64,000 bases of DNA from Diphasiastrum complanatum. Lineage: Eukaryota > Streptophyta > Lycopodiopsida > Lycopodiales > Lycopodiaceae. Shown piece by piece: positions 36,258 through 63,080 of this stretch. Position 1 is the first letter of the stretch, and each line of letters begins with the position of its first letter. The stretch covers positions 42,681,229-42,745,228 of the forward strand of contig CM055102.1 of NCBI GenBank assembly GCA_029204225.1. Direction: 5' to 3'. The translations under genes and the position numbers were made by a program. The notes below the pieces were generated by a model. That model had not been told where the DNA came from. It made no database searches and worked only from the letters and a program-made list of their open reading frames with translations.

Positions 36258-36429
36258 CAGACCCGCGGTACTAGGGCGGCACCATAATAATAATATTTAT
36301 TATTATTATTATTATTATTTTTAATTAAAAACCCCTTTTACTAGGGTAATTTGGGGTAAAAATTTTTGAAAAAAAAAAATGTCAGGGTTTAGAAAAAAGG
36401 GGGGACTGTACAGAGAGGGACTATACAGG

Positions 36430-36690: not shown

Positions 36691-36825
36691 TCATCAACAG
36701 CTGCACATGGGGGAACAGGCTGTGGGGTTAAATAGGCACTCACGAGGCTGTGAGAGCCACTGAGAGGCTGTGAGAGGCATTGTGAGAGGCTGTGAGAGCC
36801 AGTGAGAGAAACAGGGTGTCGTGAG

Positions 36826-41011: not shown

Positions 41012-44000
41012 CCCCCCCTTAATGGCAATTTTATTCAAACTGACACCCAACAAAGTTCTGAACTTTTCAAACTTATCTTTACTAAGTGGTTTAGTAAAAA
41101 TATCAGCTGTCTGGTCGTTGGTGTCGCAATAAACTAGCTCGATCTCCCCACTGTGCACTTTCTCTCGTATAAAATGCTGGTCCACCTCTATATGTTTTGT
41201 CCGTGCATGATAGACTGGATTCCTTGCAAGCTGAATGCAGCTTTGGTTATCACAATGTAACAATGTAGGTCTTACTTGAGCAATCTGCATGTCCTCAAGT
41301 AGACGGCGTAACCAAATGGCTTCACAGGCGGACCTCGTAGTCGCCCTGTACTCAGCTTCGGTAGACGATAGAGCAATAGTAGGCTGCTTCTTACTGCACC
41401 ACGATATAGCCCCTGAACCTAGGCTGAAGCAATAGCCTGTCGTCGATCTCCGATCGTCTCTATCACCTGCTCAATCAGAATCTGAATAGCCTTCCAGCTG
41501 AAGGTTCCCGTCATCCGTGTATCCAATCCCATAAGTCACTGTCCCTCTCACATATCGTAGGATCCGCTTTGCTGCCTTCCAATGTGCTTCGGTAGGCTTA
41601 CACATGTATTGACTTGCGATTCCAACCGCATAAGCAATATCTGGCCTGGTGGTAGTAAGGTAAATCAGGCTGCCCACTAATTGACGATAGAGCGTCTCAT
41701 CTGCAAATGCTGGACCATCATCTTTTGATGGCTTGTTGCTTGCATCCATGGGTGTGCTGATTGGTTTGCTTTCTTGCATGTTAAACTTCTTCAATAATTT
41801 CTGTGCATACTTTGCCTGTGAGATAAAAAGACAACGCTTTCCTTTCCAAACTTCAACTCCTAGGCAATAGTGTAGCAAACCCAAATCTTTCATTTCAAAC
41901 TCATTAGAAAGATTCTTCTTAACACAAGCAATAAGCTTCTTATTGCTTCCCGTGATGAGTAGATCATCCACATAGAGCACAACAACCACAAAGTCTTCTC
42001 CTTCCCTGAAGACATAAAGATTGCAATCAGACTTACTCTTCTCAAACCCTTGCCTTGCAAAGTACTCATCAATTCGGCTATACCAAGCCCTTGGCGCCTG
42101 TTTGAGCCCATACAAGGCTTTCCTAAGCCTGCAAACCAGATTCTCCTTGCCAGTTATTTCAAATCCCTGCGGTTGTTCCATGTAAACCTCCTCCTGTAGG
42201 TGCCCATTAAGAAAGGCACTCTTGACATCCATTTGATGGACATCCCAATCAAAATATGAGGCTATAGCCAAAACGGTCCTGATAGATGTCATTTTAGCAA
42301 CAGGTGCGAATGTCTCATCATAGTCTAGCCCCTCTTGCTGAGCATAGCCTTTCGCCACCAACCTTGCCTTGTACTTGTCCACTGTTCCATTGGCATGAAA
42401 CTTGGTCTTATAGACCCACTTGCAACCTATTGGTTGCTTCCCTTCTGGCAATGTAGTGAGCTCCCATGTGTCATTCTTGACAATGGAGTCGTACTCCTCC
42501 TGCATGGCATGTTGCCATACCTTTTCTCTCACGGCTTCGTGAAAGAATTGTGGCTCATCTGCATTCAGAATAGTGGACATAAGAGCAAAGTTAGTCTCTT
42601 GTCTCTCATGAGACCTAAGAGATCTTCTGACACCCTGTTCACTGCTCTCTCCTTCTTCAATCATTTGACCTTCTTTGATTGTTTCCCAATACCACCTAGG
42701 TAGCTTCTTCCTAGCAGTAGGTGATGTGGATGGTGACCACGTATCCCATGGTACTGTTTTAGTCTTCCGTTTGTCCCCAACTTCTGCTTCTGGTACTTGG
42801 CCAAAAAGAGGTCTCGAACTAGTAGGTTCGATTTCCTGTTGTTGCTCCTGCACTTGAGGCTTACAGGACTCTTGACTAGGATCCTCATCCGTGGAATCAA
42901 TCAAGGGTATGAACTCAGTAATTCCTTCCTTCTCCTGCTCCTGTATCTTGGGTGCATGCTCTTCATCAAAGATGACATCTCGACTTAGGATCTTCCTCCT
43001 GTTTTCGAGATCATATAGCACATAAGCTTTCTCACCTTCACTATACCCAAGAAAGACACACTTTACGGATTTTGCATCAAGTTTCTTCCGCAAGTCCTTT
43101 GGTATATGTGCATATGCTGTACACCCAAATACTCGAAGGCTGCCCACTTTGGGCTTCTTGCCACTATATGCCTCTTCTGGCGTGATTCCTTCAACTGCTT
43201 TGGTTGGACTTCTATTCAATAGAAAAACAGCAGTTGCTACCGCTTCTGCCCAAAAGGAATTTGGCAACCCCTTTGCCTTGAGCATGCTCCTCGCACACTC
43301 AACTATAGACCTGTTTTTCCGCTCAGCCACGCCGTTTTGCTGCGGTGTATGTGGAGCAGTAAACTGTCTCTTTATCCCACATGCTTTGCAAAGATCTTTG
43401 AACTCATCAGAAATATACTCACCACCCTTATCTGACCTGAGAGTCTTTAACCTCTTTCCTGTGTGGTTTTCCACCATAGCTTTCCACTGTTTGAAGTATT
43501 TGAACGCTTCAGATTTCAGTTTCAGAAAATAGACCCATACCTTCCGAGAGAAATCATCTACGAAGGTCATGAGATAGTATGCCCCCCCTGCTGATTTGAC
43601 CTGCATGGGACCACATAAATCTGAATGCACAAGTTCAAGAATGCCCTTGGCCCTGGTAGCTTTCTCCTTTGGAAACTTTTTCCTCTGTTGCTTCCCTAAT
43701 GCACAAGCCTCACATGTATCTGAAGAAGACTTAATGCTAGGAAGATCTACTACCATTTTGTGCCTGTTCAAAACTTGCAAACTTTTGTAACTCAAATGAC
43801 CATATCTCTCATGCCAAAGCTTGTCCCGATTAGTATCTCTTGCAGACAAGGCCTCTTGGCTAGGAATGGTTGTGAAAAGCTTGTAAAGACCTCCTTCTTG
43901 CATTCCTTTGGCTACCACTTTGAAGTTCTTCTCTTTGTCTTTTACCAAACATTTAGAATCATTAAACTCTACCACCATGTTCTGTTTGGTAATGGCACCA

Positions 44001-45157
44001 ACAGATAACAAGTTCTTAGCCAACCCTGGTACATGCAACACACTTTTAATTTCCTTCACCTCACCTGATGATAGCTGTATTGTAACTGTACCTTTGCCCC
44101 TCACCATACGTGTAGAATTATCTCCAAGGCAAACATGCTGGCTATCTTCTGTCTCCTCATAGGTGCTGAACCAATCTCTATGAGGTGTCATGTGCTTTGA
44201 GGCTCCAGAATCAATATACCATCCACCAAATGTGGATTCAGATGATAGGGCTGCGGTGAATAGCTCAAGCACACCAGATTGCTCCTCCTCTGCAACTTTG
44301 TCAACAAAGTGACTCTGCTGGTTCTTTCCCTTCTTCTGATCACTTTGCTTCTTCCTGCATTCAAAAGCAAAATGCCCATACTTACCACAATAGTTGCAGT
44401 TGCCCTTCCTCTTGGGTGTGGATGAGGAATTGGTGCTTGACTCCTCTCCAACCTGTAACTTGGACACCTGCTGCTCCAAGCTTTGCTTTGAGTTCTTCTT
44501 TTTGCCTTTGCCTTTCTTCTGAAAGTTTTGCTTCTTCTTAGAAGCAAATGCAAGCTCTGGATTATCTTCCCTTTCAGAAAGATTCTTCCTTCTCATCTCC
44601 TCCTGTAAAAGAAGACCACATAACTCCCCAAAGGTTGGGAGTTTCTCCCTAGCAGAAAGGGACATCACATAGTCTTGATAGTTGAATGACAAGCTGTTCA
44701 AGACTATGGGAACAATACTCCTGTCACTTACTTTCTCTCCAACTGAAGCAAGCTGATCCAATAGGTCCTTGACCTTTGTAATATGATCACCAATTGTTGC
44801 ACCTGCTTCCATCTTGAGAGTATGTAACCTGTTTTGCAAATACACCAGCTTGGCTGAATCCACTGTTTCAAACATAGACTTCAGAATTGTCCAAGCATCA
44901 GCTGCATCCCTTGCATTGCAAATGTGAGGAATAATATTGTCCTTGACAGAAAGGTTGATTATCCTATGAGCTTTATGTCTCCTGTTCATGTAGTCCTTCA
45001 ATTCAGGATCAGATGTTGGTACAGGTTCTGTACCTGTCATGACCTCCCAGCAATTCTTATCCATCAAGATATTGGCTATCTTGAACTTCCACACTCTGTA
45101 GTTTGTGCCATCTAGTTTGCTAGATTCACCCAGCAAACTCTCCCCAAGACTTGCCAT
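41006..45157 (-). CDS. Copia-2 gag-pol polyprotein with one premature stop
   Basis: One frame of 1383 codons from ATG 45157 to TGA 41006-41008, broken only by TGA at 41471-41473 region (codon 1229), where copia proteins have the Trp of SDWAGD. Domains by residue: UBN2 gag about 1-245; zinc knuckle [14 protein letters not shown] at 254-267; protease WYIDSGAS with Asp316; integrase zinc H-H-C-C about 450-486; integrase catalytic Asp513 (HSDLCGP), Asp576 (LRSDKGGEY), Glu612 (AERKNR); reverse transcriptase 895-1140 with YVDD at 1062-1065; RNase H after the stop, with SSTEAEY and TKPL. All catalytic residues are present. The TGA truncates RNase H. It could be a G-to-A change (C-to-T on the plus strand) typical of cytosine deamination. 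Confidence 0.96.
41012..41020 (-). other. Copia-2 polypurine tract
   Basis: Plus strand CCCCCCCTT, i.e. AAGGGGGGG on the element strand, directly abutting the 3' LTR. It primes plus-strand DNA synthesis. Confidence 0.85.
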
Positions 45158-45614
45158 GCTAAAATCTGTGCTTAAAACAGAAGCTCAACTTGAAAGAGAT
45201 CAGAAAAGAACAGCTTCCAACAACAAGGGTTTAACCCCAAACTAGGGTATGTAGCCACTTCAAGGCAACCCTTCAGCTCCTGCTTTTGTCTTTGCCACTT
45301 GGTGTGGCCTCACTAGCACAAGCACTAGGCTCCACTGGAACAGAAACCAGAAGCCCCTACAGAAAGTGCGCCCTACTTTTGTGTAAGCTCCTCCAGAAAA
45401 ACTCTCCAAAACTTAGCCAGATTTAGAAAGTTTTTGGATCATCCCCCTCCCCTTGCCAATAGCTCACCAACAGTGCAAGACTCCACCTGATCTGACACCT
45501 GTAGATCAAATGCTCCCTCTTTCAAGATTGAGGTGCTTGTAGAAGATAAGAATCTTCTCAAGAATCTAAGCACTGAAGTTTCTCTCACTCTCAAACTCAC
45601 AGGCTAGACAACCT
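45158..45614 (-). other. Copia-2 leader between primer site and ATG
   Basis: About 455 bp without a coding frame. It lies between the primer site and gag ATG, the usual position of packaging and dimerisation signals. Confidence 0.8.
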
Positions 45615-45626
45615 GCTCTGATACCA
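45615..45626 (-). other. Copia-2 primer-binding site (tRNA-Met)
   Basis: Plus strand GCTCTGATACCA directly abuts the 5' LTR. Confidence 0.93.
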
Positions 45627-46026
45627 TGAAGAATTATAAGACCTAGCTATGGAGTATCTTAACTCAGATGCTAGATCAACTATGAAAGCTTGAGAAAACT
45701 TGGCTATGGAAATATCACACACAAGGAGAATTGCATGAGCATCTCACAAACTCAAAAGTCTCAAGAAGAAATGAATTGCTAGTAAGAGAGAGGAGGGCGT
45801 GGGTCCTCCAAATCTCTTGTGAGGCAAGCACCTCCTTTACATGCATGGAAAGTCTAGGTGTCAACCATGGGAGTGAGCTACTTGGCCAAGTGGGCCACTT
45901 GCACTAATTTACATAACTTAACAAAAGGGGGGGTCATGCATTTAATTAAAACATGCCCCATGAGTTATGTACAACTTATCTAATGCTTAGCCAAAAAAGG
46001 GGTAAAATAGGCATTACTCTTCAACA
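45627..46026 (-). repeat. Copia-2 5' LTR (right), 400 bp
   Basis: As read, every base matches 40612-41011. On the element strand it starts TGTTGAAGAG and ends ATTCTTCA. Confidence 0.97.
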
Positions 46027-46400
46027 AGCAGTACACCCATCTGAATGCAGTTGTCCGTCACAACCGTGACGACATGCTGTGCGCCTATGGACAGGATGGA
46101 AGACCTGATGACATCAAACATGAACTCTGCAGATATGACTCTCCCCCCCCTGCGACAATCCACGGCCCTCAAACACTGTGTGCCCATGCAGCTGGAGACC
46201 AATATGTTGAGCATCGGCCTCCTCCTGGCATCAGTCCAGCCATCGGACATGATGCTGCAACCGTAAGTGGCCCAGTGACGACGTAGAGGCTCCATCTCTC
46301 TAGACAAGGACTCGACCCTATCCCTCAGCATGTGTGTGCGGACAACCTCTGAACTAGGGTGGCGGAAAGCTGGAAAATCCACAACAATGGTCGAAGTAGC
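46027..46400 (-). pseudogene. hAT copy A transposase, DUF659 part
   Basis: Minus strand: SSEVVRTHMLRDRVESL, CSIMSDGWTD (first catalytic Asp) and VVTVVTDN (second Asp) then CIQMGVLL, ending at the Copia-2 duplication. It lacks three codons after TDN relative to copy D (TDNATNCIQM). Upstream the frame meets a deletion that joins it to the 5' leader, removing the BED finger and linker. Confidence 0.85.
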
Positions 46401-46665
46401 AGTAGCAGCGGAAGCGATCTGTGCAACGCAAATACAGTGTGATGGCGAGGAGTGCGCGAACAGCAGAGAGGGCGCAGACAGCAGGAAGAGGGCGCGGACA
46501 GCAGCGAGATGGGCAGGGAGAGAGATGAAGCGAGGGGGGGGATTAGGGTAAAAAAAAATATTTATATATTAAATATTAAAAATTATTAAATATTGTGATA
46601 CCGCCGCGGATCAGTATGGATCCGCGGTACCTGGATCCGCGGATCTTGGTACCGCTGGATCTATG
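46401..46665. repeat. Right terminus of hAT copy A with GGTACC/GGATCC palindromes
   Basis: GCGCGGACAGCAG leader, AT-rich spacer, then a run of CCGCGGATC and GGTACC palindromes (46600-46660) ending GGATCTATG. Inverted, the last 75 bp match the left end of copy C at 50289-50365. Confidence 0.85.
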
Positions 46666-46692
46666 ATATATATATATATATATATATCATAG
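46661..46692. repeat. Palindromic junction between copies A and B
   Basis: CTATG, then 22 bp of alternating AT, then CATAG: a perfect 32-bp palindrome where the inward-facing ends of two hAT copies meet. Confidence 0.93.
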
Positions 46693-47246
46693 TGGCCTCT
46701 GGTACCACTGGTATGGTACTGCCGGTACCATATCATTGGTACCACCGGTACGGTACCACCCTGGGATCCGCGGTACCAGGGCGGTACCATATTTAATATA
46801 GATATATTTTTTATTATTTTTATATTATTTTTTGCCTATTACCTACCAAAATAGGTCAAAAAAATGGAAAAAAAGGGGGTTCTGGGTGTAAAAAAAGAGG
46901 GTACAGTACATGGTGCAGGGGACTGGTGCAACGACATATGGGCACTGTGGGTGAGCAGACCATGGGGCCAATGGAAGAGCAACACAGGAGGGGAGCATCA
47001 CATGGGGGTAGGTACAGAGGCACATGGAGGGATGATGGGGATCCACATGGCCGATCAGGTTGTGGGGATAAAGAAGCACTCAGAATGCCATTGTGGTTGG
47101 CATTTTCAGAGGCTATGAGAGAGCTAGTGATAGACAGTGAGAGAGCAAGCGAGAGCCGATGACAGGCTGTGAGAGGCTGTTGAGAGCCAGGGTGCTGTGA
47201 GAGGGTGTTCAAGGACCGGGGTGTTGTGAGGAGAAGGTCGATCGAG

Positions 47247-47612
47247 ATGGCAGAGCGCATACCACCGAAGCCCGAGGGCGAAGCCAGGAGGAAGCTTGAG
47301 GAAGATATCTGAAGGCACAACGAAAGACATCGGAAGCAAGAGGCAGATATCCGAGAGATGCTGCAACAGACTCGGCAGAGAAATCCGGAACCGGAGCCAC
47401 CCGCCCCCGCTGTGGCTTCTGTCCCCGCTGTCGAGCTGGATTTGGATGAGTAGATCGGAATGAACTTCACACGACGACAGCTCAGCATGGTCAAGGAAAG
47501 GGTGGCCAGACGTCGGGCTAACAAGGAGGCAGCTCGGGCTAACCGGGAGGCAGAGCGAGAGCGACAAAACAATGCACCTGACGAGGGTGAGGAGTCGGTG
47601 GAGGATCAGTAG
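47247..47612 (+). pseudogene. ORF2 of copy B, with two stops
   Basis: The full ORF2 length is present from ATG 47247 (MAERIPPKPEGEARRKLEED) to TAG 47610-47612. TGA replaces an Arg codon in the helix (at about 47310), and TAG replaces Gln of DLDEQIG at about 47451. Both fit C-to-T changes. Otherwise close to ORF2 of copy D. Confidence 0.8.
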
Positions 47613-48137
47613 GAATGTTTAGAATAGATAAGGTCCAGCTGTATGTGGCGGACTGTTGCTACGTGGTTTTCGGCAGTTTAGGGTGCGGCAAATAACTAGA
47701 TGACTGCTTAAAAAAAAGACAGGATATGTAATGTTATCTTTATACAACGGTTGAATCAATATATAGTTGTTTTTTGTGCAACGTGAGCCTGGTCATGTGA
47801 AATGCAATCTCTATAATTTTTTTAAATGCAAATGTATTACATGTGTTTATGAAATGCCGTTTGGGGTGTAGGGGTAATTGCTGTGCTCATGATGTAGGTG
47901 CATTTATGTGAAGCTAACATTCACTTCAATCAAAATTAGTTGAAAATAGGATTCACACACGCACATAGAATTTGACATAAATTGAAAATACAGCATCACA
48001 TGTACAAAGTGACATACGCACAATGTGCAGCAAATAAAGTATGCCAAACACTGTATATAATGTGAAAAATCATCTGAGTACAATGGTAGACCGCCTGCTA
48101 GAGACAAACTACTGAAACTAAAACAATAGAGCCACAA

Positions 48138-49625
48138 TCAATGCTCTGGCTCTGACTCAAACGAATGCTCTGGAGACAACTTTGGGCCCCGAGCTGACTC
48201 TTGCAGCCGATATCTGTGCCTGTCTAGAACTGGCATGGGCTGTGTGTCCGAGGAGGAGGACTCGTCACTAGCATCATCCCAATCTGCCTCCGCATCAGCC
48301 CCAAGCAAGCCAAACCAACAACACCTCCTCCAGTTGGCTGTAATCGTGCACTTTTAGCTGTACCTGGAGCCCTGTGTGGTCATCCTCTCTTCCCTGGCAG
48401 TTTCTGTGCCTTGCCTTTCTTGTTCGGTGCACCCTTGGGCCTTCCTGGTCTCTTGCGGACAAGAGGAGCTGTCAATGCCTCATCACCCCCATGCAAATTA
48501 CCTGGCTGGCTAGGCTGGGCCCAAGCTGAGGCCGGCTGGGATAGGGAAGCAAAAGAGGGAACTCCCTGTGCACCTGAGCGAGGAGGATGAGCTCGTGGAG
48601 TGTGTGCCCGTATGGCTGCTGCAGGTGGAGGAACTGGCTGTGCAGGAGGCGAGTACAACGACGATATGTACTGAAAGGGGCGCTGCGGTGGCCGGTACTG
48701 GTACATCCTGGGTGCTGCCAAAGGGGGAGTGAGTGGAGTGGGTGCTGCCAAAGGATGCAGATGTGGAGTGGGTGCTGCCACTAGAGGAAAAGCTGGAGGA
48801 GCCACTGTGGATGTGGGCGTTGCAAGAGAAAACCTGGGCACAGATGGTGGCCTGCCATGGAGACTTGGTGCTGCAGAAGTGGACGGCGATGGAGGGGCTA
48901 CAGGCCTGAATGGCATCGATGGCACTGGAGGAGCTATGCGGCACACATATACCCTCTAAGGAGCTGGAGGAACTGTAGACACCTCGTGCGGCTGCTCTGG
49001 CTGGGACTCTATGTATAACATGCTGGCAAGAGATGAAGGGGGTGCCCTAACACTCGGCATCTGCCGAGCCTCTGAATCCAATGTGGCAATCAAGTCGTCC
49101 AGCTGGGCATCTGAATACAAATGCTTTGGGCTCTGGGCCTCATCTTGTGCATCATCCCCTGAATCATCCTGTGCACCATCCCCTGAATCAACCCGTGCCT
49201 CATCCCGTGCCTCATCATGTGCACCCTGTAGACCCTGCATGGCCTCCCAATCTGTGCAATCAAAGTCATCTGGTGCCTCCTCTGGTGTGCTGTCGTAGTA
49301 ACGGCCATGACTCTGTACTGCACGAATCCAAACAGCTGCGGGACTGGCATCTAAATCACTCTGCCCTCTATCAAGAGCCTCCATCATGTTGACATAGGTA
49401 GGTATGCCACTGGTCCCCCCTGTGTGCCCTGCCTGTCTCCCGGTATAACCTGTGCCATGTGCCCCACCTCTACCACGTGATGCACCTGTGACCCCTGCAC
49501 CTGTATCATCTGCCTCATCCCTCTCTGATCTGGCAAACACAACCCGAATGGGCTCATCCTCATCATGCTCATCCTCTGACACTAGCTCATCCGCCTCATA
49601 CAATGGGGGCTCTCTGTGCTCAAGC

Positions 49626-49666
<41 letters not shown>

Positions 49667-49782
49667 TCAGCAAGCTCCCTCTCTCTCTTTGCCATCAACT
49701 GTGTGCCCAAGTCATCTGCAGGCATGGGATGGACGCTGTCCGTAGGCAAGTCAACCCGGCGCTCCAAATCAGATATCTTCGT
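48138..49782 (-). pseudogene. hAT copy B transposase C-terminal extension
   Basis: Equivalent to the last exon of copy D: TKISDLERRVDLPTDSV, an Arg/Glu microsatellite, the acidic MYEADELVSEDEHDEDEP block, a Pro/Ala-rich centre (about 48560-48950) and AT-hook KRPGRPKGAPNKKG. It has a stop in PAPQRVYV (Gln to TAG, about 48956) and a frameshift before the second hook. The catalytic exons to the right are deleted. Confidence 0.85.
49633..49664. repeat. (CT)n inside transposase coding sequence (copy B)
   Basis: About 16 CT units encode alternating Arg-Glu on the minus strand. Copy D has only three to four units at the same site (59568-59577). Confidence 0.9.
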
Positions 49783-50275
49783 CTGCAAGGTCAAAATTGA
49801 GCGTGTCAGGACAACAATTTTATCAAAAATTGAAACCTACATTTTAGTGAGATGTCAACCAACATGCTATGGGAGAAAAGCCCATCACCTGCAATGCGCT
49901 CGTAATGGTCGGCAGTCAACTGGAAGGATGGATTGCTGGAAAAAAAACAGCAGGGTTCACTGTTGGAGAGACTTTGAAAATGGGCGAAGGCAGGGCGAAG
50001 CAAGTCGGATGCAAGGCAGGGCGTTGCGTTGGCGAAGGGCGACGCAAATGCAGGGTGGCAACAGCAGCGATGACTTCACACGTGTGAAAGTACGGCCTCC
50101 CACAGTCTGAGTACTGTACACCAGACCTACATTCAATCCGAAGGAGGGCGCAAAAAAATTTCAGAGGAAACGCGAGGGGGGCGGGTAGGTGTTTAGGTCA
50201 AAAAAAAATTAAAAAAAATATTAAATATTAAATAATATTTATATTGTGGTACCGCGGTACCGGGATCCGCGGGAC

Positions 50276-50293
50276 CTATGATATATATCATAG
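50276..50293. repeat. Palindromic junction between copies B and C
   Basis: CTATGATATATATCATAG, a perfect 18-bp palindrome. The spacer between CTATG and CATAG is ATATATAT, exactly 8 bp, the length of a hAT target duplication. Confidence 0.95.
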
Positions 50294-50674
50294 ATCCAGC
50301 GGTACCAGGATCCGCAGATCCCGGTACCGCGGATCCATACTGATCCGCGGTACCACAATATATATTATTTTTTAATATATAATATTTTTTAATATCTAAT
50401 ATACTAATATTTTCTTTTTTGACCTAATCCCCCCCCTCGCTTCATCTCTCCCTGCCCGTCGCCCTACTGTCCGCGCCCTCCCTACTGTCCGCGCACTCTC
50501 TGTTGTATGCCCATCGCCCTACTGTCCGCGCCCTCCCGACTGTCTTCGCATTGCACTGATCGCGTCCTCCCCTGCTATTGCTATTTCGGCCTTTATTGTG
50601 GTTGTTTCAAGCCTTCCGACTCCTATCGCACCCACAGAGATCTCTGCCTTCTTTCTGCAGTCCTTTCTACAGAG

Positions 50675-53600
50675 ATGGTGCATTCCAACCTTGCCGATCT
50701 GTGGGACGAGGTGGACATTGTCAGGTGGGTTCCCGACAAGTCTAACAAGTCCGGTGCAAGGATAGTGCGCTGTCGATATTGCCTGACCGAGTTCGTTGCC
50801 ACCCTCACTTGCCTTAAAGGTCACCTACTCGGCGCACGCGCGAGAGATGGTGGCACACTGAATGCTGCCCCCTGTGCCAGCATGTCCGTTCCCGTCAGGC
50901 AGCGACTTTTGGATACCTACGGGCCACGTCTTGTGGCGGGGGAGAACACCATTTCGGAGGGTGTTCTTCGGTTTTGCACCGCTCCTTACGTGGTTGACCC
51001 CGAGTTGCTGCCTGCTTGGCTGGCACGCACGAGGAGAGGGAGTGCATCCTCGTCCAGTCCTTTTGCCCCTCGTCCCTCTCAGACAGTTCCGCCTCACGCA
51101 CCCCCATCTGCACCCATTCCGGTGGATCCTGTCCCACCGCGTCCGCTTGTTGCCACTGTGGTTCCACCACCACCTACTGTTGCTCGCACTCCCCCAATTT
51201 ACGACTTTCTCATGGACTCTCTGCCTCCCGAGCAGGAGCAGGCCCCCGATGCCAGTGACGAGGCCTTCCAGGATGTTGAGGAGATCCCTTCCTCCCTCCC
51301 TTCACATCCGGATGACCTCCCTACCCAGCAGTTTTTGTATCCCATGCCAGATGTCCACCCTCCACCAATGTACCCCACTTACGCTGCTGCACCCATCCCG
51401 GCCAGTGCATCCCACTCTCCCCATTCCACGTCTACAGCTGATGCATCCACTAGTGCCTAGCCTGTCGCGTCATCATCCATTCCCGTCACGTTTGGTGCAG
51501 CGTGCTGGAGGTCTGCTACCCGTTGCCCAGCTGGGAGAGTTCTTAGGCAGCAGAGCATTCGCGGCGCGCATCAGCCGCACATGGATAGAGAGGCCACACA
51601 GGCCGTGGCCAGCCTGATTTATGAGCTGAACCTTCCATTTGCCATCACTGACTCCGGGCCCTTCAGAAGGGCCTTCCGCCTTGCACATTCTGTCAGCCCT
51701 AGATGGAGAGTCCCTAGTTCAGAGGTTGTCCGCACACACATGCTGAGGGATAGGGTCGAGTCACTGTCTAGAGAGATGGAGCCTCTACGTCGCCACTGGG
51801 CCACTTACGGTTGCAGCATCATGTCCGATGGTTGGACTGATGTCAGGAGGAGGCCGATCCTCAACATACTGGTCTCCAGCTGCATGGGCACACAGTTTTT
51901 GAGGGCAGTGGATTGCAGCAGGGGGGGGAGAGTCATATCTGCAGAGTTCATGTTTGATGTCATCAGGTCTTCCATCCTGTCCATAGGCCCACAACATGTC
52001 GTCACAGTGGTGACGGACAATGCCACGAACTGCATTCAGATGGGTGTACTGCTAGAGGCCGAGTTCCCTCACATTGTTCATACCCCTTGTGCCGCGCACG
52101 ACATAGACCTTCTGATGGGGGACATAGGTGCACTTCCTTGGGTTAGAGCCATCGTCCGTGAGGCCCTCTTCCTGGTGACACCAGGAAGAGGCGTGTTCTT
52201 GCCATGTTCCGGGTGTTCAGCCATCTAGACCTCCGTAAGCCAGCCCCCACACGCTTTGCATTCGACTTGGTGGTCATCTACCGTCTGATCAGGTGCAGGG
52301 CGCAGCTTCTACAGATGGTTGCCAGTGATCTTTGGTGTGCCAGTACATTTTCGCGCACTGAGGATGGGGAGCACTTTTCTTCCACGATGAGGGGAGACCA
52401 GTTCTGGAGGGATGCACAGACATTGTCAGGACTGCTTCGACCACTTTACATTGTGCTCCGCATGGCTGACAGCGAGGGGTCGACACTTGGACTGGTATAT
52501 GAGCTCATGGACCGGATTGGACAGTTCCTGCAGCTACCCATATCGCAGACAGGGAGCTCGAGGCCGATTGGCTTCAGTACATTCTCAGAGTGGGTCCACA
52601 CATTGGTTTGGATCCTATCAGGCTCATGGAGGAGCTCGCTGCATTTCGTTTTGGCATGGGCACATTTGGCCACCCGACTGCTCAGGATCTAGAGAGGAGG
52701 CAACTACCCATTACCTGGTGGACCATGTTCGGTAGCACATACCCATCTATACAGCGTCTTGCACTACGTGTCCTTTCTCAGGTATGCATCTCATTTTATC
52801 CTCCATTGTTGTGTTTCGTTGAAGACAATGTGCTGAAGTATTTCAATGCACGTACCACAGGACTGTGCTGCCTCCGTGTGTGAGCGTAATTGGAGCACAT
52901 GGGCACTCATTCACACGAGGAGAAGAAACCGGTTGTCAGTGAGTCAGTTGGAGCGGTTGGTGTTCTGTTACACCAACGCACGTCTCGCCAGGAGACTTCC
53001 GACCATTACGAGCCCATTGCAGGTGATAAGCTAACCTTTCATAGCATGTTGGTTGACTCCTGGTATGTTGGTTTCATTTCTTGATAGAGTTGTCTCCCTG
53101 ACATGCCAATTTTAAACCTTGCAGACAAAGATATCTGATTTGGAGCGCCAGGTTGACTTGCCTACGGACAGCACCCATCCCATGCCTGCAGATGACCTGG
53201 GCACACAGTTGATGGCAGAGAGAGAGAGAGAGGGAGCTTGCCGAGATGAGAGAGAGAGAGAGCTTGGGCTTGAGCACAGAGAGCCTCCATTGTACGAGGC
53301 AGATGATCCAGTGTCAGAGGATGATCAGGATGAGGATGAGCCCATTCGGGTTGTGTTCGCCAGATCAGAGCGGGATGAGGCATATGATATAGGTGTTGGG
53401 CACACGCCTAGAGCAGGGGTCACAGGTGCATCACGTGGTAGAGGTGGGACACATGCCACAGATTATACCGGGAGACGGGCAGGGCACACAGGGGGGGCCA
53501 GTGGCATACCTTCTTATGTTGATATGATGGAGGAGGCTCTTGATAGGGGGCAGAGTGATTTGGGTTTACCTTCCGCAGCTGCTTGGATGCGTGCATCACA

Positions 53601-54771
53601 GAGCCATAGGCATTTCTATGACAGCACACCAGAGGAGTCACAAGATGACTTTGATTGTACCGATTGGGAGGCCATGCAGGGTCCGCATGGTGCACAGGAT
53701 GAGGCACGGGATGATCCAGAGGATGGTGCTCATGATGAGTCCCAGAGCCCAGAGCATTTGTATTTGGATGCCCAGCTGGACGACTTGATTGCAGACTTGG
53801 ATTCAGAGGCCTAGCAGATGCCGAGCATCAGGGCACCCCCATCCTCTCTAGCCAGCATGCCCTACACAGAGTCTCAGCCAGAGCAGCTACACGAGGTGCC
53901 TACAGTTCCTCCAGTTCCTCAGAGGGTGTATGTGCTCCGCACAGCACCTCCAATGCCACCGATACCGTTGAGGCCTGCAGCCCCTTCATCGCCATCCACT
54001 TTTGCAGCAGTAGGTCTCCATGGCAGGCCACCATCTGTGCCCAGATCTTCTCTTGCAGCACCCACATCTACAGACGCTCCTCCAGTGGCAGCACCCACAA
54101 CATATCCTACTCCATTGGCAGCACCCACGGCACCGGCTCCTCCTTTGGCAGCACCCACAACACATCCTCCTCCTTTGGCAGCACCCAGGATGTACCAGTA
54201 CCGTCCACCACAGCGCCCCTTTCAGTACTTATCGCCGTTGTACTTGCCTCCTGCAGGGACGGCCCCTCCACATCTAGTTCCTCCACAAGCAGGCCCACGG
54301 GCACACACTCCTCGGACCTATCCTCCACTATCAACTGCACAGGGACACCCATCTTTAGCTACTCTATCCCAGCCGGCCGCAGCTTGGGCCCAGCCTAGTC
54401 AGCCAGGTGATCTGCATGGGGGTGATGAGGCATTGACGGCTCCCCTCGTCCGCAAGAGGCCAGGAAGGCCCAAGGGTGCACCGAACAAGAAAGGCAGGGC
54501 ACAGAAATTGCCAGGGAAGAGAGGACGACCTCGCAGGGCTCCAGTTGCTGGTAGAGGTGCAGTATTACAGCCAGCTGCAGCAGGTGTTGTTGGTTTAGCC
54601 TACTTGGGGGCTGATGCGAAGGCAAATTGGGAGGATGAGGATGACGAGTCTTCCCCCTCGGATACACAGCCCATGCCAGTACCACACATACATAGATATT
54701 AGTTGCGAGAGTCAGCTCGGGGCCCTGAGTTGTCTCCAGAGCATTCACCTGAGTTTGAGGCAGAGCATTGA
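50675..54771 (+). pseudogene. hAT copy C transposase
   Basis: ATG 50675 begins MVHSNLADLWDEVD with BED finger CRYCLTEFVATLTCLKGHLL. A TAG at 51458-51460 replaces Gln after DASTSA. A 7-base loss at about 52176 in LVTFVTRKRR shifts the frame. Intron 1 and the start of exon 2 are deleted near 52545. CERNWSTWALI is at about 52885. The C-terminal extension (from 53125) has a further TAG at 53812-53814 and TAG near 54701; AT-hooks KRPGRPKGAPNKKG and KRGRPRR are kept. Compared with copy D, most lesions are CAG to TAG. Not functional. Confidence 0.92.
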
Positions 54772-55268
54772 TTGTAGCTCCGTCATTTTATTTTTAGCAG
54801 TTTGATATCATGTTCCATGTTTGGCGACCAGATGGTCGAACACTGTATTCAAACCATTTTTCATATTATATTTAGTGTTGGACGTATTCTATTCACTGCA
54901 CAATGTGTATTTGTCAATTTGTAATTGTGATGTTCTACTTGCAGTTTTACTTCAAATGGTGTGTGCGTGTTTTCAATTAGTTTTCACTACAGAGTTTGAG
55001 AGCATATGCAGAACACAGAAATACAACCCCCTGATAGCATTTCATAATCACATACATCAGATTGCAATACACAAGGCACCATTGCACAAAAAACACAACG
55101 TACATTAATTCATCAGATGTATCAAAATTACAGTACGTATTCCCGCCGCATATGGCTGGGGCTGTTCTTTACACCATGCTAGACACTAAATACTGCCTCA
55201 TCTACTGATGAACAATACATAACAACAGTCAACCACATACGGCTAGACCCCATCTATGCTAAACATTC

Positions 55269-55613
55269 CTATGGATCCTCCACTGACTCCTCGCCCTCGT
55301 CAGGAGCATTGTTATGTCGCTCTCGCTCTGCCTCCCGGTTAGCCCGAGCTGCCTCCTGGTCAGCCCGACGGCGGGCAGCCCTTTCTCTGACCATGATGAG
55401 CTGCCGTCGTGTGAAGTTCATTCCGATCTGCTCATCCAAATCCAGCTCGACAGCGGGGGCGGGGGCCACAGCGGGGGCGGGGATCTGCTGCTCTGGGTGT
55501 CTCTGCTGAGTCTCTCGCAGCATCTCTGCAATGTCTGCCTCTTGCTTCCGATGCCTTTCGTTGTGCCTTCGGACATCTTCCTCGAGCTTCCTCCTGGCTT
55601 CGCCCTCCCCCAT
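55269..55613 (-). CDS. ORF2 of copy C: charged helical protein, 114 aa
   Basis: An open minus-strand frame from ATG 55613 (MGEGEARRKLEEDVRRHNER) to the stop at 55269. Relative to copy D it lacks the first seven or so residues but keeps the rest in frame. An N-terminal Arg/Glu-rich helix (residues 5-45), an Ala/Pro hinge (AVAPAPAVEL), the motif DEQIGMNFTRRQLIMVRER, and an Arg/Ala/Glu helix before an acidic end. No catalytic motif. It is the only ORF2 besides D that remains uninterrupted, although its transposase partner is broken. Function unknown. Confidence 0.65.
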   Translation of the reverse strand: MGEGEARRKLEEDVRRHNERHRKQEADIAEMLRETQQRHPEQQIPAPAVAPAPAVELDLDEQIGMNFTRRQLIMVRERAARRRADQEAARANREAERERHNNAPDEGEESVEDP

Positions 55614-55869
55614 CTCACGACACCCTGTTGCTCGAAATGACCCTCACAGCCTCTCAATGGCTCTCATTGGCTCTCTCACAGCCCCCCTCTCACAGCCTCT
55701 CACTTGGTCTGTCACACAGCCTCTCACAATGCCTCTCTCTCACAGCCTCCCACTGGCTCTCCTTCACAGCTTCTCACAATGCCTCTCACCCCCTCTCACT
55801 GGCTCTCTCACTGTCTCGTGAGTGCCTATTTAACCCCACAACCTGTTTCCCAATTTGCTTTTGTTCATG

Positions 55870-56270
55870 ATCCCATGTGCCATGTGCTGATCCCCCACAT
55901 GCTGCACTGCGATTGGGTCCATGGTCTGCTCCTCCACAGTGCCCATGTGACGGTGTACCTATCCGGATGTATTGCTCCCCCACATGCTGCACTCCAATTG
56001 GGTCCATGGTCTGCTCCTCCACAGTGCCCATGTGCTACTGTACCTGCCCCATGTGCTGATCCCCCACATGCTGCACTGCGATTGGGTCCATGGTCTGCTC
56101 CTCCACAGTGCCCATGTGACGGTGTACCTGTCCGGATGTATTGTTCCCCCACATGCTGCACTCTGATTGGGTCCATGGTCTGCTCCTCCACAGTGCCCAT
56201 GTGCTACTGTACCTACCCCATGTATTGCTCCCCCACATGCCGCACTCCGATTGGGTCCGCTCTCCCACAG
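55870..56270. repeat. Subterminal 84-85 bp tandem repeat, five copies (copy C)
   Basis: CCCCCACATGCTGCACT begins units at about 55892, 55977, 56061, 56146 and 56230. Alternate units differ in the same way (GCGATTGGG with GTGCTGAT, or ACTCYRATTGGG with TGTATTG), so a two-unit 170-bp block was itself duplicated. Confidence 0.93.
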
Positions 56271-56399
56271 TGTCCCCAGTACAGTCCCCCTGTGCAGTAA
56301 CATCTTTTTTCTAAACCGTAGCCCTTTTTTTTCCTGAATTTTTTACCTAGTTTTAGCCTGTTAAAAGGGTTTTTTTTTTTTTTAAAAATAATAATAAAA

Positions 56400-56513
56400 A
56401 ATATTATTTTTGTGGTGCCGCCCTGGTACCGCTGGTCTGAGGGCGGCACCATAACCGCGGTACCACCATTATGGTACCGCGGTACCATAATGGCGGTACC
56501 ACGTGCCACTATG
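56400..56513. repeat. GGTACC-palindrome terminus, ORF2 side of copy C
   Basis: Nested palindromes: GGTGCCGCCCT against AGGGCGGCACC, and ATTATGGTACCGCGGTACCA with its reverse repeat. Ends GTGCCACTATG. A matching copy forms the terminus at 62978-63080. Confidence 0.88.
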
Positions 56514-56532
56514 ATATATATATATATCATAG
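56509..56532. repeat. Palindromic junction between copies C and D
   Basis: CTATG, 14 bp of alternating AT, CATAG: a perfect 24-bp palindrome. Confidence 0.94.
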
Positions 56533-56759
56533 TTCCTCGTGGTACCGCTGGTATGGTACCGCCGGTACCATATCAGTGGTACCGCCGGTACGGTACCGCC
56601 CTGGGATCCGCGGTACCAGGGCGGTACCATTTTTAATATTTTTTTTTATTTTTTAATATATTTTTAATAATTTTTTTTTGCATATTAACTACCAAAAAAG
56701 GACAAAAAAAAGATATAAAAGGGGGTTCTGGGTGTAAAAAAAGAGGGTACAGTACATGA

Positions 56760-56960
56760 TGCAGGGGACTGTTGCAGTGGCACATGGGCACTGCGAGTGA
56801 GCAGACCGAGGGGCCAATGGGAGACCAACACAGGGGGGTAGCATCACATGGGGGCAAGTACAGAGGCACATGGGCATTGTGGGTGAGCAGACCATGGGCC
56901 CAATGGGAGACCAACACAGGGGGGAGCATCACATGGGGGCGGGTACGGAGGCACATGGAG
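56760..56960. repeat. Subterminal repeat, about 87 bp unit, two copies (copy D)
   Basis: CATGGGCACTGCGAGTGAGC at 56782 and CATGGGCATTGTGGGTGAGC at 56869 begin the units; a partial third start follows. Related to the 84-bp units of A and C. Copy B has one unit at about 46938-47025. Confidence 0.8.
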
Positions 56961-57178
56961 GGATGATGGGGATCCACATGGCTGATCAGGCTGTGGGGAT
57001 AAATAGGCACTCACAATGCCATTGTGGTCGGCATTTTCAGAGGCTGTGAGAGGGCTAGTGATAGACAGTGAGAGAGCAAGCGAGAGCCGGTGACAGGCTG
57101 TGAGAGGCTGTTTGAGAGCCAGGGTGCTGTGAGAGGGTGTTCAAGGATCAGGGTGCTGTGAGGAGAAGGTCGATCGAG

Positions 57179-57544
57179 ATGGCTGAGCGAATACCACCGA
57201 AGCCCGAGGGCGAAGCCAGGAGAAAGCTTGAGGAAGATATCCGAAGGCACAACGAGAGGCATCGGAAGCAAGAGGCAGATATCCGAGAGATGCTGCGACA
57301 GACTCGACAGAGAAATCCGGAACCGGAGCCACCCGCCCCCGCTGTGGATCCTGTCCCCGCTGTCGAGCTGGATCTGGATGAGCAGATCGGAATGAATTTC
57401 ACACGACGGCAGCTCATCATGGTCAGGGAAAGGGCGGCCAGACGTCGGGCTAACCAGGAGGCAGCTCGGGCTAACCGGGAGGCAGAGCAAGAGCGACAAA
57501 ACAATGCACCAGACGAGGGCGAGGAGTCGGTGGAGGATCAGTGA
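57179..57544 (+). CDS. ORF2 of copy D: 121-aa charged helical accessory protein
   Basis: ATG 57179 (GATCGAGATGGCTG) to TGA 57542-57544. An N-terminal helix rich in Arg and Glu (residues 10-50, ARRKLEEDIRRHNERHRKQE) is followed by a Pro/Ala hinge (PEPEPPAPAVDPVPAVEL). Then come DLDEQIGMNFTRRQLIMVRE and a second basic helix (AARRRANQEAARANREAEQE), with an acidic tail (GEESVEDQ). It is probably an alpha-helical, perhaps coiled-coil, nucleic-acid-binding protein, but no family was recognised. It is convergent with the transposase, 0.5 kb away. The same frame, position and ATG occur in copies A-C, showing it is a constant part of the element and not chance. It could aid transposition or be regulatory; this is inference. 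Confidence 0.75.
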   Translation: MAERIPPKPEGEARRKLEEDIRRHNERHRKQEADIREMLRQTRQRNPEPEPPAPAVDPVPAVELDLDEQIGMNFTRRQLIMVRERAARRRANQEAARANREAEQERQNNAPDEGEESVEDQ

Positions 57545-58067
57545 GGGATGTTTAGAATAGATGAGGTCCACCCGTATGTGGCGGACTGTTGCTATGTAGT
57601 TTTCGGCAGTTTATGGTGCAGCAAATAACTAGATGGCTGCTTAAAAAAATGACAGTATATGTGATGTTATCCTGATACAACGGTTGAATATATACATAGT
57701 TGTTTTTTGTGCAACGCGAGCCTGGTCATGTAAGATGCAATGTTTGTAATTTTTTTAAATGCAGATGTATTACATGTGTTTATTCAATGTCGTTTGGGGT
57801 GTAGGGGTGATTGCTGTGCTCATGATGTAGGTGCATCTATGTGAAGCTAGCATTCACTTCAAACGAAATTAAATGAAAATAGGATTCACACACGCACATA
57901 GAATTCTTCAACATAAAATAAAGCATCACATGTACAGAGCGACATACGCACAATGTGCAGCAAATAATGTAGGCCAAACACTGTATATAATGTGAAAAAT
58001 CATCTGAGTACAATGGTAGACCGACTGCTAGAGACAAACTACTGAAACTAAAACAATAGAGCCACAA

Positions 58068-61000
58068 TCAATGCTCTGGCTCTGACTCAGACGAATGCTC
58101 TGGAGACAACTCAGGGCCCCGAGCTGACTCTCGCAGCCGATATCTCTGCCTGTCTGGAACTGGCATGGGCTGTGTATCCGAGGGGGAAGACTCGTCATCC
58201 TCATCCTCCCAATCAGCCTCCGCATCAGCCCCCAAGCAGGCCAAACCAACAACACCTGCTCCAACTGGCTGTGATACTGCACCTCTACCTGTACCTGGAG
58301 CCCTGCGTGGTCGTCCTCTCCTCCCTGGCAGTTTCTGTGCCTTGCCTTTCTTGTTCGGTGCACCCTTGGGCCTGCCTGGTCTCTTGCGGACAAGAGGAGC
58401 TGTCAATGCCTCGTCACCCCCATGCAAATCACCTGGCTGGCTAGGCTGGGCCCAAGCTGAGGCCGGCTGGGATAGGGAAGCAAAAGAGGGAACTCCCTGT
58501 GCAACTGAGCGAGGAGGATGAGCTCGTGGAGTGTGTGCCCGTGGGGCTGCTGCAGGTGGAGGAACTGGCTGTGCAGGAGGCGAGTACAGTGGCGATATGT
58601 ACTGAAAGGGGCGCTGTGGTGGCCGGTACTGGTACATCCTGGGTGCTGCCAAAGGAGGAGGATGTGACGTGGGTGCTGCCACTGGAGGAGACACTGTGGA
58701 TGTGGGCGCTGCAAGAGAAAACCTGGGCACAGATGGTGGCCTGCCATGGAGACCTGGTGCTGCAGAAGTGGACGGCGATGGAGGGGATGCAGGCCTAAAT
58801 GGCATCGGTGGCACTGGAGGAGCTGTGCGACGCACATACACCCTCTGAGGAGCTGGAGGAACTGTAGGCACCTCATGCGGCTGCTCTGGCTGGGACTCTG
58901 TGTGTGGCATGCTGGCAAGAGATGATGGGGGCGCCCTGACACTCGGCATCTGCTGGGCCTCTGAATCCAATGTGGCAACCAAGTCGGCCAGCTGGGCATC
59001 CGAATACAAATGCTCTGGGCTCTGGGACTCATCCTGTGCACCAGCCTCTAAATCATCCTGTGCACCGACCTCTGAATCATCCTGTGCACCAACCCCTGAA
59101 TCAACCCAAGCCTCATCCCGTGCCTCATCATGTGCACCCTGTAGACCTTGCATGGCCTCCCAATCTGTGCAATGAAAGTCATCAGGTGCCTCCTCTGGTG
59201 TGCTGTCGTAGTAACGGCCATGACTCTGTGCTGCATGCATCCAAACATCTGCGGGACCAGCATCTAAACCACTCTGCCCTCTATCAAGAGCCTCCTCCAT
59301 CATGTCGACATAGGTAGGTATGCCACTGCCCCCCCCTGTGTGCCCTGCCTGTCTGCCGGTATAACCTGTGCCATGTGTCCCACCTCTGCCACGTGATGCA
59401 CCTGTGACCCCTGCCCGTGGCGTGTGCCCTGCACCTGTATAATCTGCCTCATCCCTCTCTGGTCTGGCAAACACAACCCGAATGGGCTCATCCTCATCAT
59501 GCTCATCCTCTGACACTGGCTCATCTGCCTCATACAATGGGGGCTCTCTGTGCTCAAGCCCAAGCTCTCTCTCTCTCATCTCGGCAAGCTCCCTCTCTCT
59601 CTCTGCCATCAACTGTGTGCCCAGGTCATCTGCAGGCATGGGATGGGTGCTGTCCGTAGGCAAGTCAACCTGGCGCTCCAAATCAGATATCTTCGTCTGC
59701 AAGGTTTAAAATTTGCATGTCAGAGAGACAACTTTTTCAAGAAATGAAATCAACATACCAGGAGTCAACCAACATGCTATGAAAGATTAGCTTATCACCT
59801 GCAATGCGCTCGTAATGGTCGGAAGCCTCCTGGCGAGACGTGCGTTGGTGCTACAGAACACCAACCGCTCCAACTGACTCACTGACAACCGGTTTCTTCT
59901 CCTCGTGTGAATCAGTGCCCATGTGCTCCAATTACGCTCACACACAGAGGCAGCACAGTCCTGTGGTGCGTGCATTGAAATACTTCAGCACATTGTGGCA
60001 AAGGTGAAACTTCAACGAAACACAAAAAATGGAGGATAAAATGAGATGCATACCTGAGAAAGGACACGCAGTGCAAGACGCTGTATAGATGGGTATGTGC
60101 TACCGAACATGGTCCACCAGGTAATGGGTAGCTGCCTCCTCTCTGGATCCTGGGCAGCCGGGTGGCCGAATGTGCCCATGCCGAAACGAAATGCAGCGAG
60201 CTCCTCCATGAGCCTGATAGGATCCAAACCTATGTGTGGACCCACCCTGTGAATGTACTGAAGCCAATCGGCCTCGAGCTCCCTGTCTGCGATCTGTGTC
60301 GGAGAGAGGAAGAGGGGATGCAGCATGTGTGCAACGCTATGGATACTCCTGTGGAAGTAGTTCCATCGCGTCTCCCATATGAACTTCAGCTCTGTCATCC
60401 TGCAGGTGAGGGGCATGTGGTTTAGGGCATTACGAAAAAGCTTAACATTGACAGAAAAACAAACTAGCAAGTACTGAAAAGATAAAGGTCAATTGCAACA
60501 CTGTACCGCTTACCTCTCTGGCTGCAAGATGGGCAGCTGCAGGAACTGTCCAATCCGGTCCATGAGCTCATACACCAGTCCAAGTGTCGACCCCTCGCTG
60601 TCAGCCATGCGGAGCACAATGTAGAGTGGTCGAAGCAGTCCTGACAATGTCTGTGCATCCCTCCAGAACTGGTCTCCCCTCACCGTGGAAGAAAAGTGCT
60701 CCCCATCCTCAGTGTGCGGAAATGTACTGGCACCCCAAAGATCACTGGCAACCATCTGTAGAAGCTGGGCCCTGCACCTGATCAAACGGTCGATGACCAC
60801 CAAGTCGAATGCAAAGCGCGTGGGGGCTGGCTTACGGAGGTCCAGATGGCTAAACACCCGAAACATGGCAAGAACACGCCTCTTTCTGGTGACAAAAGTC
60901 ACCAGGAAGAGGGCCTCCCGGACGATGGCTCTAACCCAGGGAAGTGCTCCAATGTCCCCCATCAAAAGGTCTATGCCGTGGGCTGCACAGGGGGTATGAA

Positions 61001-62387
61001 CAATATGAGGGAACTCGGCCTCTAGCAGTACACCCATCTGAATGCAGTTCGTGGCATTGTCCGTCACCACCGTGACGACATGCTGTGGGCCTATGGCTAG
61101 GATGGAAGACCTGATGACATCAAACATGAACTCTGCAGATATGACTCTCCCCCCCCTGCTGCAATCCACTGCCCTCAAAAACTGTGTGCCCATGCAGCTG
61201 GAGACCAGTATGTTGAGGATCGGCCTCCTCCTGACATCAGTCCAGCCATCGGACATGATGCTGCAACCGTAAGTGGCCCAGTGCCGACGCAGAGGCTCCA
61301 TCTCTCTAGACAAGGACTCGACCCTATCCCTCAGCATGTGTGTGCGGACAACCTCTGAACTAGGGACTCTCCAGCTAGGGCTGACAGACTGTGCAAGGCG
61401 GAAGGCCCTTCTGAAGGGCTCAGAGTCGGTGATGGCAAAGGGCAGGTTCAGCTCGTAAACCAGACTGGCCACGGCCTGTGTGGCCTCTCTGTCCATGTGC
61501 GGCTGATGCGCGCCGCGAATGGTCTGCTGCACGAGGGCTCTCCCTGGTGGACGACGGGTGGTGGACCTCCAGCACGGTGCACCAACCGTGACGGGAATGG
61601 ACGATGACGCGACAGGCTGGGCGCTGGTGGATGCATCGGCTGTAGACGTGGAATGGGGAGAGTGGGATGCACTGGCAGGGATGGGTGCAGCAGCATAGGT
61701 GGGGTGCACTGGTGGAGGGGCAACATCTGGCATGGGGTACGAAAACTGCTGGCTGAGGAGGTCATCCGGATGGGAAGGGAAGGAAGAAGGGATCTCTTCC
61801 ACATCCTCGAAGGCCCGCCCAGTACCATCCTGGGCCTGCTCGGGTGGCGGAGAGTCCATGAGAAAGTCGTAGACTGGTGGAGTGCGAGCAACGGTGGGTG
61901 GTGGTGGAACCGCAGTGGCAACTGTCGGACGCGATGGGACGGGATCCACCGGAATCTGAGCAGATGGGGGTGCATGAGGCAGAGCTGTCTGAGGGGCAAA
62001 GGGACCAGAGGAGGATGCACTCCCTCTCCTCGTGCGTGCCAGCCAAGCAGGCAGCAACTCTGGGTTAGTCACATAAGGAGCGGTGCAAAATCGGAGAACG
62101 CCCTCCGAAATGGTGTTCTCCCCTGCCACGAGCCGCGGCCCGTAGGTGTCCAATAGTCGCTGCCTGTCGGGGACGGTCATGCTGCCACAAGGGGCAGCAT
62201 TCAAGGTGGCACCATTTTTGGCGCGTGCACCGAGCAGATGGCCTTTAAGGCGAGTGAGGGATGCAGCAAACTCGACGAGACAGTATCGGCAGCGCACGAT
62301 CTTCTGACCGGTCTTGTTGGCCTTGTCGGCAACCCGCCTGACAATGTCTACCTCGTCCCACAGACCGGAAAGGTCGGATTGCACCAT
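58068..62387 (-). CDS. hAT transposase with AT-hook C-terminal extension, copy D (4 exons, 1336 aa)
   Basis: Exons on the minus strand: 62387-60514, 60399-60054, 59960-59799 and 59696-58068. Introns of 114, 93 and 102 nt have GT/AG ends and keep frame. Residues: BED-type finger Cys33, Cys36, His50, Cys67 (CRYC, KGHLLG); Pro/Ser-rich linker about 120-280; DUF659 with SDGWTD (Asp380) and VTDNATN (Asp443), HTPCAAH at 465-470; hAT core to 740; dimerisation region CERNWSTWALIHT in exon 3, whose Glu748 is the likely third acidic residue. Exon 4 (795-1336) is unusual: acidic (SEDEHDEDEP), Gly/Ala- and Pro-rich, then AT-hooks PGRPKG and RGRPRR at about 1230-1260 and an acidic tail. hAT enzymes cut and paste DNA. 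Start chosen at 62387, matching copy C; an in-frame Met lies upstream at 62483. Confidence 0.9.
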
Positions 62388-62771
62388 TGCGATGGAGAAA
62401 ACTAAGGACAAAACGCTGGAAAAAAAACAGCAGGGTACACTATGTGAGAGACGCTGAAAATGGGCGAAGGCAGGTTCTTGCAAATCAGATGCAAGGCAGG
62501 GCGGTCTGTGGGCGAAGGGCGACGCAAATCAGACGCAAGGCAAGGAAGACAGGGCAGCAAAACCAGTAGCGAAGGCAGGGCAACGATGGCTGGAAAAAAA
62601 TTGGGAGAGAAGAAGCGAGGGGGGCGGGTAGATTAGGTTTAAAAAAATTTCAAAAAATATTAAATATTAATTATATTAATATATTATGGTACCGCGGTAC
62701 CATCATGGTACCGCGGTACCAGTACGGTCCCGCGGTACCGGGATCCGCGGTACCCAGTACCGCGGGACCTA

Positions 62772-62773
<2 letters not shown>
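62387..62773. repeat. Leader and right terminus of copy D
   Basis: Leader with GGCGAAGG and CGACGCAAATC repeats, AT-rich spacer, then GGTACCGCGGTACC palindromes (62686-62765), ending GGGACCTATG. It matches the terminus of copy B at 50240-50280 (CGCGGGACCTATG). Confidence 0.85.
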
Positions 62774-62823: not shown

Positions 62824-62977
62824 ATTTTAGTGGGCAATATGGGTATCAGCTTGAAGCTGTTGACGAGAGCAGTCCATTTCAGGGTAAATTTATAGCTAAA
62901 ACAATATCTTTTGGCTTTTTTTGGGCAGATACAGCATTAGAGAATATTAGGAAAAAATATTAAAAACACAATATATT

Positions 62978-63080
62978 GTGGTACCGCCTTGGTACTGCAT
63001 TCTACAAGGCGGCACCATAATGGAGGTACCACCATTATGGTACCGACGGTACCATAACGGCGGTACCACAGGGAACTATG
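62978..63080. repeat. Isolated hAT-family terminus (fragment E)
   Basis: GTGGTACCGCCTTGGT to GGGAACTATG at 63080, with internal GGTACC palindromes and an AT tract outside. It closely resembles the ORF2-side end of copy C and, inverted, the left end of copy D (CATAGTTCC then GTGGTACCG). No coding is attached. It is a truncated copy or a small non-autonomous derivative. Confidence 0.8.

Follow-up and report, generated by a model that had tools for sequence, protein, structure and literature searches.

A two-gene hAT transposon family of the clubmoss Diphasiastrum complanatum and its insertion into (AT)n tracts

Copy D and its two genes

A stretch of 64,000 nucleotides from the clubmoss Diphasiastrum complanatum (assembly GCA_029204225.1, contig CM055102.1, positions 42,681,229 to 42,745,228, forward strand; hereafter the window) carries four adjoining copies of a hAT transposon, designated A to D, among which only D is intact. 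Copy D is 6246 bp in length (56528..62773, plus strand), has CATAG...CTATG tips, and is flanked by (AT)7 on the left and (AT)22 on the right. It contains two convergent genes, a transposase gene on the minus strand and a small open reading frame (ORF2) on the plus strand, with a spacer of 523 bp (57545..58067) between their stop codons. The motif GGTACC occurs 13 times in D, seven times in the left terminal region (56528..56677) and six times in the right (62664..62773), so that all 13 lie within the first 150 or last 110 bp and none in the interior. The CATAG tip matches four of the five positions of [T/C]A[A/G]NG, the consensus tip of hAT terminal inverted repeats as given in an excerpt of PMC6027215; position 3 is T, not A/G.

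The transposase gene consists of four exons (60514..62387, 60054..60399, 59799..59960 and 58068..59696, all on the minus strand), as the sequence-only reading of this DNA had proposed, and the three introns (114, 93 and 102 bp) are all bounded by GT..AG. When spliced, the exons encode 1336 aa with a single terminal stop. Exon 1 specifies a zinc-finger-like N terminus (C-x2-C starting at C33; no zf-BED match in Pfam), a DUF659 domain (Pfam, E 1.6e-40), D380, D443, C467/H470 and R524-F525. The catalytic E748, within CERNW, is in exon 3. Exon 3 by itself gave no Pfam match to the hAT dimerisation domain, but spliced exons 2 and 3 matched Dimer_Tnp_hAT (PF05699; 1.3e-09, 38.1 bits, cut-off 21.4), and as this match spans the exon 2/3 junction it supports the second splice. 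Exon 4 encodes a 542-aa low-complexity tail with two AT-hook-like motifs (RKRPGRPKG and GRRGRPRRAPG). The key residues of plant hAT transposases are listed as D, D, R, W/F and E in the excerpt of PMC6027215; those of D (D380, D443, R524, F525 and E748) agree with angiosperm relatives wherever the site is covered. The ratio of nonsynonymous to synonymous substitution rates (dN/dS) was 0.12–0.29 in exons 1–3 and 0.36–0.40 in exon 4 for the pairs C-D and A-D, and 0.67 in exon 4 for B-D.

Judged from its sequence, the transposase of D reads as a complete hAT enzyme, and the hAT identity given to the element earlier is borne out by the dimerisation domain, the catalytic residues and an 8-bp target duplication. 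Identity as a PIF/Harbinger element was considered and rejected: Pfam searches of the D proteins returned DUF659 and Dimer_Tnp_hAT only, and ORF2 had no Pfam match. A Mutator/MuDR identity was likewise rejected, given the hAT transposase and the 8-bp duplication.

ORF2 (57179..57544, plus strand) encodes 121 aa followed by a stop, the length and convergent orientation reported previously. AlphaFold2, run on five sequences, predicts two long helices (residues 10–45 and 66–108), with a mean pLDDT (predicted local distance difference test) of 78.6 and a pTM (predicted template modelling score) of 0.30. The helices are charged and perhaps fit a coiled-coil helper, although the models say nothing firm about function. 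Two protein searches for ORF2 in other species, made at word-based sensitivity with candidates of 0.55–1.75 times the query length (8000 candidates scored in the second), returned only P0001 of D. complanatum itself, a protein whose full length is matched with 100% identity at three places in the genome. The idea that ORF2 arose by duplication from within the transposase was rejected (best BLASTP E 0.33).

The copies fall into two subfamilies, A/C and B/D, between which the spacer is 64–74% identical with many indels, while ORF2 is 87–88% identical, with an in-frame deletion in C and a frameshift in A as its indels. ORF2 is conserved far more than both of its flanks. Compared with D, its dN/dS was 0.19 for A, 0.20–0.26 for C (three alignments), 0.20 for B, and 0.15 and 0.26 for genomic loci L019b and L010b; the pairs A-B and B-C gave 0.35 and 0.30–0.33. 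The other five frames, compared with D, gave 0.9–2.1, save one antisense frame at 0.31–0.45. When the same substitutions were placed at random and amino-acid changes counted (5000 trials), equally few changes were obtained in 0/5000 trials for D to A, 0/5000 for D to C, and 0.02% in the reverse direction. A larger C-type set, made up of C and 20 copies chosen down the ranking of 150 genomic matches to P0001 (5 of the 20 with a stop), had a mean dN/dS versus D of 0.25 (range 0.20–0.32). Differences from D fixed in at least 80% of this set were 18 synonymous over 84 sites and 16 nonsynonymous over 279 sites, a per-site ratio of about 0.27. ORF2 is a real protein gene under frame-specific purifying selection; neutral evolution, tested by dN/dS, fails, and the two-gene character ascribed to the element in the sequence-only reading stands.

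Copies, family size and target sites

Copy A (36270..46665, plus strand; left boundary approximate) has a frameshifted ORF2, a transposase gene with stops in exons 1 and 4, and a nested Copia element; its left tip was looked for and not found. In copy B (46688..50280, plus strand) ORF2 is interrupted by two stops, and transposase exon 1 is missing along with most of exons 2–3. Copy C (50289..56513, minus strand) is inverted, with an ORF2 that is open despite an in-frame 21-nt deletion and a transposase broken by stops and by a deletion spanning intron 1 and the beginning of exon 2. Successive copies are separated by AT repeats alone: A and B by 22 bp, B and C by exactly the 8 bp ATATATAT, the common target duplication (50281..50288), and C and D by 14 bp. 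A left-end remnant of the family, fragment E (62945..63080, minus strand), adjoins another AT tract. The order of ORF2, gap and transposase tail is kept in all four copies, as had been noted before (the gap in D being the 523-bp spacer), and this common layout exceeds chance because ORF2 holds its frame under purifying selection.

The ORF2 halves of A and C differ from D by a synonymous divergence (dS) of about 0.35–0.37, versus about 0.08–0.25 for transposase exons 1–3, which suggests mosaic copies or gene conversion. The Copia long terminal repeat (LTR) retrotransposon nested in copy A (40612-46026) has two 400-bp LTRs that are 100% identical, a 5-bp duplication (AGCAG) and an open gag-pol frame of 1228 aa, and was probably inserted very recently. 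Elsewhere in the window are Copia and Ty3-type retroelement fragments (2911-5093, 10230-10943, 17075-18845 and 33388-34572) and a tandem array of about five copies of a 151-bp unit (7769-8543).

Genome-wide counts were made on the 1.74-Gb assembly. The exact right-tip pattern of D occurs 1076 times (525+551; control 0). The ORF2 matches scored (150 of 3748 candidates) were all 100% identical to D, while with P0001 as query the 150 scored (of 4785 candidates) were 90–100% identical, and by hand count about 100 of these had no stop. Twenty loci were taken around DUF659 matches; almost all contained long open frames, a selection that favours intact copies. Thirteen near-full loci were aligned and were 97.5–99.95% identical to D (98.3–99.95% for the eight with both ends); the other seven have larger deletions or incomplete matches. 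The three GT..AG pairs are present in 13/13 near-full loci and the whole 1336-aa frame is kept in eight and broken in five, so that D is one of many apparently intact copies, in keeping with the earlier suggestion that it looks autonomous. By these counts and comparisons the D family is large and young, and appears to have been active recently. One locus (L037, C5:32129600-32138600) holds three tandem copies, about 0.5 kb apart, of a 2.6-kb deletion derivative in which most of the transposase is gone and ORF2 is identical to that of D; two are complete in the retrieved sequence and the third is cut off.

Target duplications were compared in 15 copies with both ends, several of them internally deleted, from the window and the 20 loci. 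The 8-bp duplication is exact in 14, and matches at 7/8 positions in the fifteenth (L024). Six of the 14 exact duplications are not pure ATATATAT, for example GTTCAAAT in L017. Over the 20 bases flanking each tip, 40 of 54 family tips from the same sources show at least 80% perfect AT alternation, against a background of 0.02% of positions in window 1-36 kb and 0.09% in the whole window. Genome-wide, ATATATAT immediately precedes 689 of the 1076 right tips (control patterns, 0). The D family inserts mostly into (AT)n tracts.

A sister family without ORF2

Of seven DUF659 loci taken from the genome, L029, L031 and L034 group with D in a tree (support 0.947); the similarity of L029 and L034 to L031 is confined to its first part. 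The family is represented by three copies, L031+L036, L078 and L079, of about 5 kb. The transposase core of L031 is 57% identical to that of D over 272 aa, and the exon 2/3 junction is at the same place. All three copies have CATAG right tips. In L078 and L079 the left tip is CATAG as well, and the 8-bp duplications are exact (GACCACCT and GATACTAG, respectively); no matching target duplication was seen for L031. Two AT-hook motifs are present in L031 and in L078, and at least the second of them in L079. The terminal motif is ACGGTT/AACCGT, versus GGTACC in D.

ORF2 is absent from all three sister copies. Searches by tblastn returned nothing for L031 and L078, and for L079 only a chance match of 16 residues (E 0.36). 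There is no minus-strand ATG frame of at least 40 aa in the final 900 bp of either L078 or L079, nor one of at least 70 aa at the end of L031. Allowing up to 3 mismatches, the right tip of the sister was counted 1141 times in the genome (control 0), and among 20 sampled tips, all exact matches, none was in (AT)n. Either the D lineage acquired ORF2 or the sister lost it.

A 20-bp motif, CCCCAGCCGTATGTGGCGGG, comes after the stop codon of the transposase in the sister (L031:3424-3443) and lies shortly after the ORF2 stop in A (20/20 identical), C and D (both 18/20), its orientation relative to the transposase being opposite in the two families. It is perhaps a common element of the 3′ untranslated region, or a trace of the arrival of ORF2. 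The genome also contains further DUF659 hAT families (L001, L002, L006, L007, L030, L032 and L033), 36–40% identical to the D core.

Possible roles of ORF2 and the origin of the (AT)n preference

The transposase would bind the GGTACC repeats at both ends and, like hAT enzymes in general, move the element by cut and paste. The ORF2 protein would act as a helper that takes the complex of transposase and DNA to (AT)n, perhaps with the AT-hook tail taking part. Insertion would leave an AT tract on both sides, where later copies could land beside earlier ones, giving rise to clusters such as A-B-C-D. Taken as a whole, this picture of a recently active two-gene hAT of clubmoss, with an ORF2 helper bringing the transposase to (AT)n, is tentative and falls somewhat short of an even chance. 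Target selection may be the likeliest single function of ORF2, though with limited confidence, and anti-silencing and a general cofactor role come close behind. That ORF2 is a self-encoded selector gained by one hAT lineage, redirecting the transposase from dispersed sites to (AT)n, is possible but doubtful. AT hooks were rejected as a sufficient cause of the targeting: both families have them and only the D family prefers (AT)n (0/20 sampled tips in the sister), so hooks alone are insufficient. The comparison of the two families suggests that the preference stems from ORF2 or from other changes in the transposase.

The second of these sources would suit an ORF2 that is a regulator or anti-silencing protein, for which VANC of the Arabidopsis VANDAL elements is a precedent, with (AT)n targeting by the transposase alone. 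The great amplification of the family is consistent with such a role, and 57% identity over 272 core residues leaves room for a change of target; yet the hooks shared with the non-targeting sister could not by themselves account for it, and we consider this explanation unlikely. A general transposition cofactor, serving complex assembly, end binding, nuclear import or strand transfer with no part in target choice, is improbable to the same degree. The mudrB product of maize Mu has been suggested to play such a role, the small second protein and convergent layout of the D family resemble MuDR, and the long helices predicted by the models would suit oligomerisation. However, the sister has spread to 1141 or more right tips (allowing up to 3 mismatches), and ORF2 is lacking in the three copies examined, which indicates that relatives of the D family do not need such a cofactor. 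It is highly improbable that ORF2 is a passenger, whether a captured host fragment or a functionless chance frame. The lack of a Pfam domain and the single protein relative, from the same species, would fit a passenger, and the 2.6-kb deletion derivative may keep ORF2 merely by its nearness to the left end, but conservation far above both flanks speaks against it, and a chance frame or neutral passenger is rejected by the frame-specific purifying selection.

Several observations weigh against the overall picture given above. The link between ORF2 and (AT)n draws on one evolutionary contrast, in which the sister's lack of (AT)n preference is taken from 20 of 1141 tips, and the targeting could be due entirely to other changes in the transposase. 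No domain was recognised in ORF2 (no Pfam match). Perfect ATATATAT does not immediately precede 387 of the 1076 right tips of the D family, and in a sample of 20 right tips, 11 were in AT repeats and nine were not (two of the nine with the same flank); that sample was chosen by hand with the ATATATAT listing in view, and the genome-wide ratio is the safer figure. In the random placement of ORF2 substitutions, the result was weak for B-D (P 0.03–0.05) and not significant for A-C (P 0.10–0.13), and constraint within the C-type subfamily is weaker (ratio 0.38, 210 pairs). The weak single-pair tests and the weak constraint within the C-type are expected if many copies are dead.

To our knowledge, hAT elements have generally been described as encoding a single protein. 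The D family has in common with plant hAT elements containing DUF659 that domain, the hAT dimerisation domain, the catalytic residues and the 8-bp duplication, and differs from them by its long AT-hook tail, second convergent gene, (AT)n targeting and CATAG tip. PIF/Harbinger elements are two-gene transposons in which an accessory Myb-like protein helps the transposase, and they make a 3-bp duplication; the D family is alike in having two genes, but the transposase superfamily differs and ORF2 is without a Pfam match. MuDR of maize (mudrA/mudrB) likewise combines a transposase gene with a small second gene in a convergent layout, and belongs to the Mutator superfamily, with longer duplications (about 9 bp). 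It is likened to the D family by layout alone, not by sequence. An excerpt of PMC4486113 calls the function of mudrB 'not well defined', and describes the Mutator-related MuTAnT/AutoMuTAnT elements of Medicago, which insert into TA microsatellites, AutoMuTAnT being putatively autonomous with a single ORF. The Ac-mMITEs of pineapple, as described in part of PMC8449440, are Mutator-related and non-autonomous, have 9/10-bp duplications, and cluster by adjacent insertion in (TA)n. Both groups resemble the D family in inserting into TA microsatellites, and the Ac-mMITEs also in clustering by adjacent insertion, but they are Mutator-related, unlike the hAT D family. Within the open-licence PMC literature (titles and the starts of abstracts, with Repbase and Dfam outside the search), neither a two-gene hAT nor one that targets (AT)n was found.

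If ORF2 does bring the transposase to (AT)n, these microsatellites would be a harmless, self-renewing niche that enables the family to amplify and cluster. One hAT lineage combines a conserved orphan second gene with a strong microsatellite preference, and a sister in the same genome shows neither. This natural with/without pair makes the origin of a target preference in cut-and-paste transposons directly testable, and several near-identical, apparently intact copies of the D family are at hand for such work.

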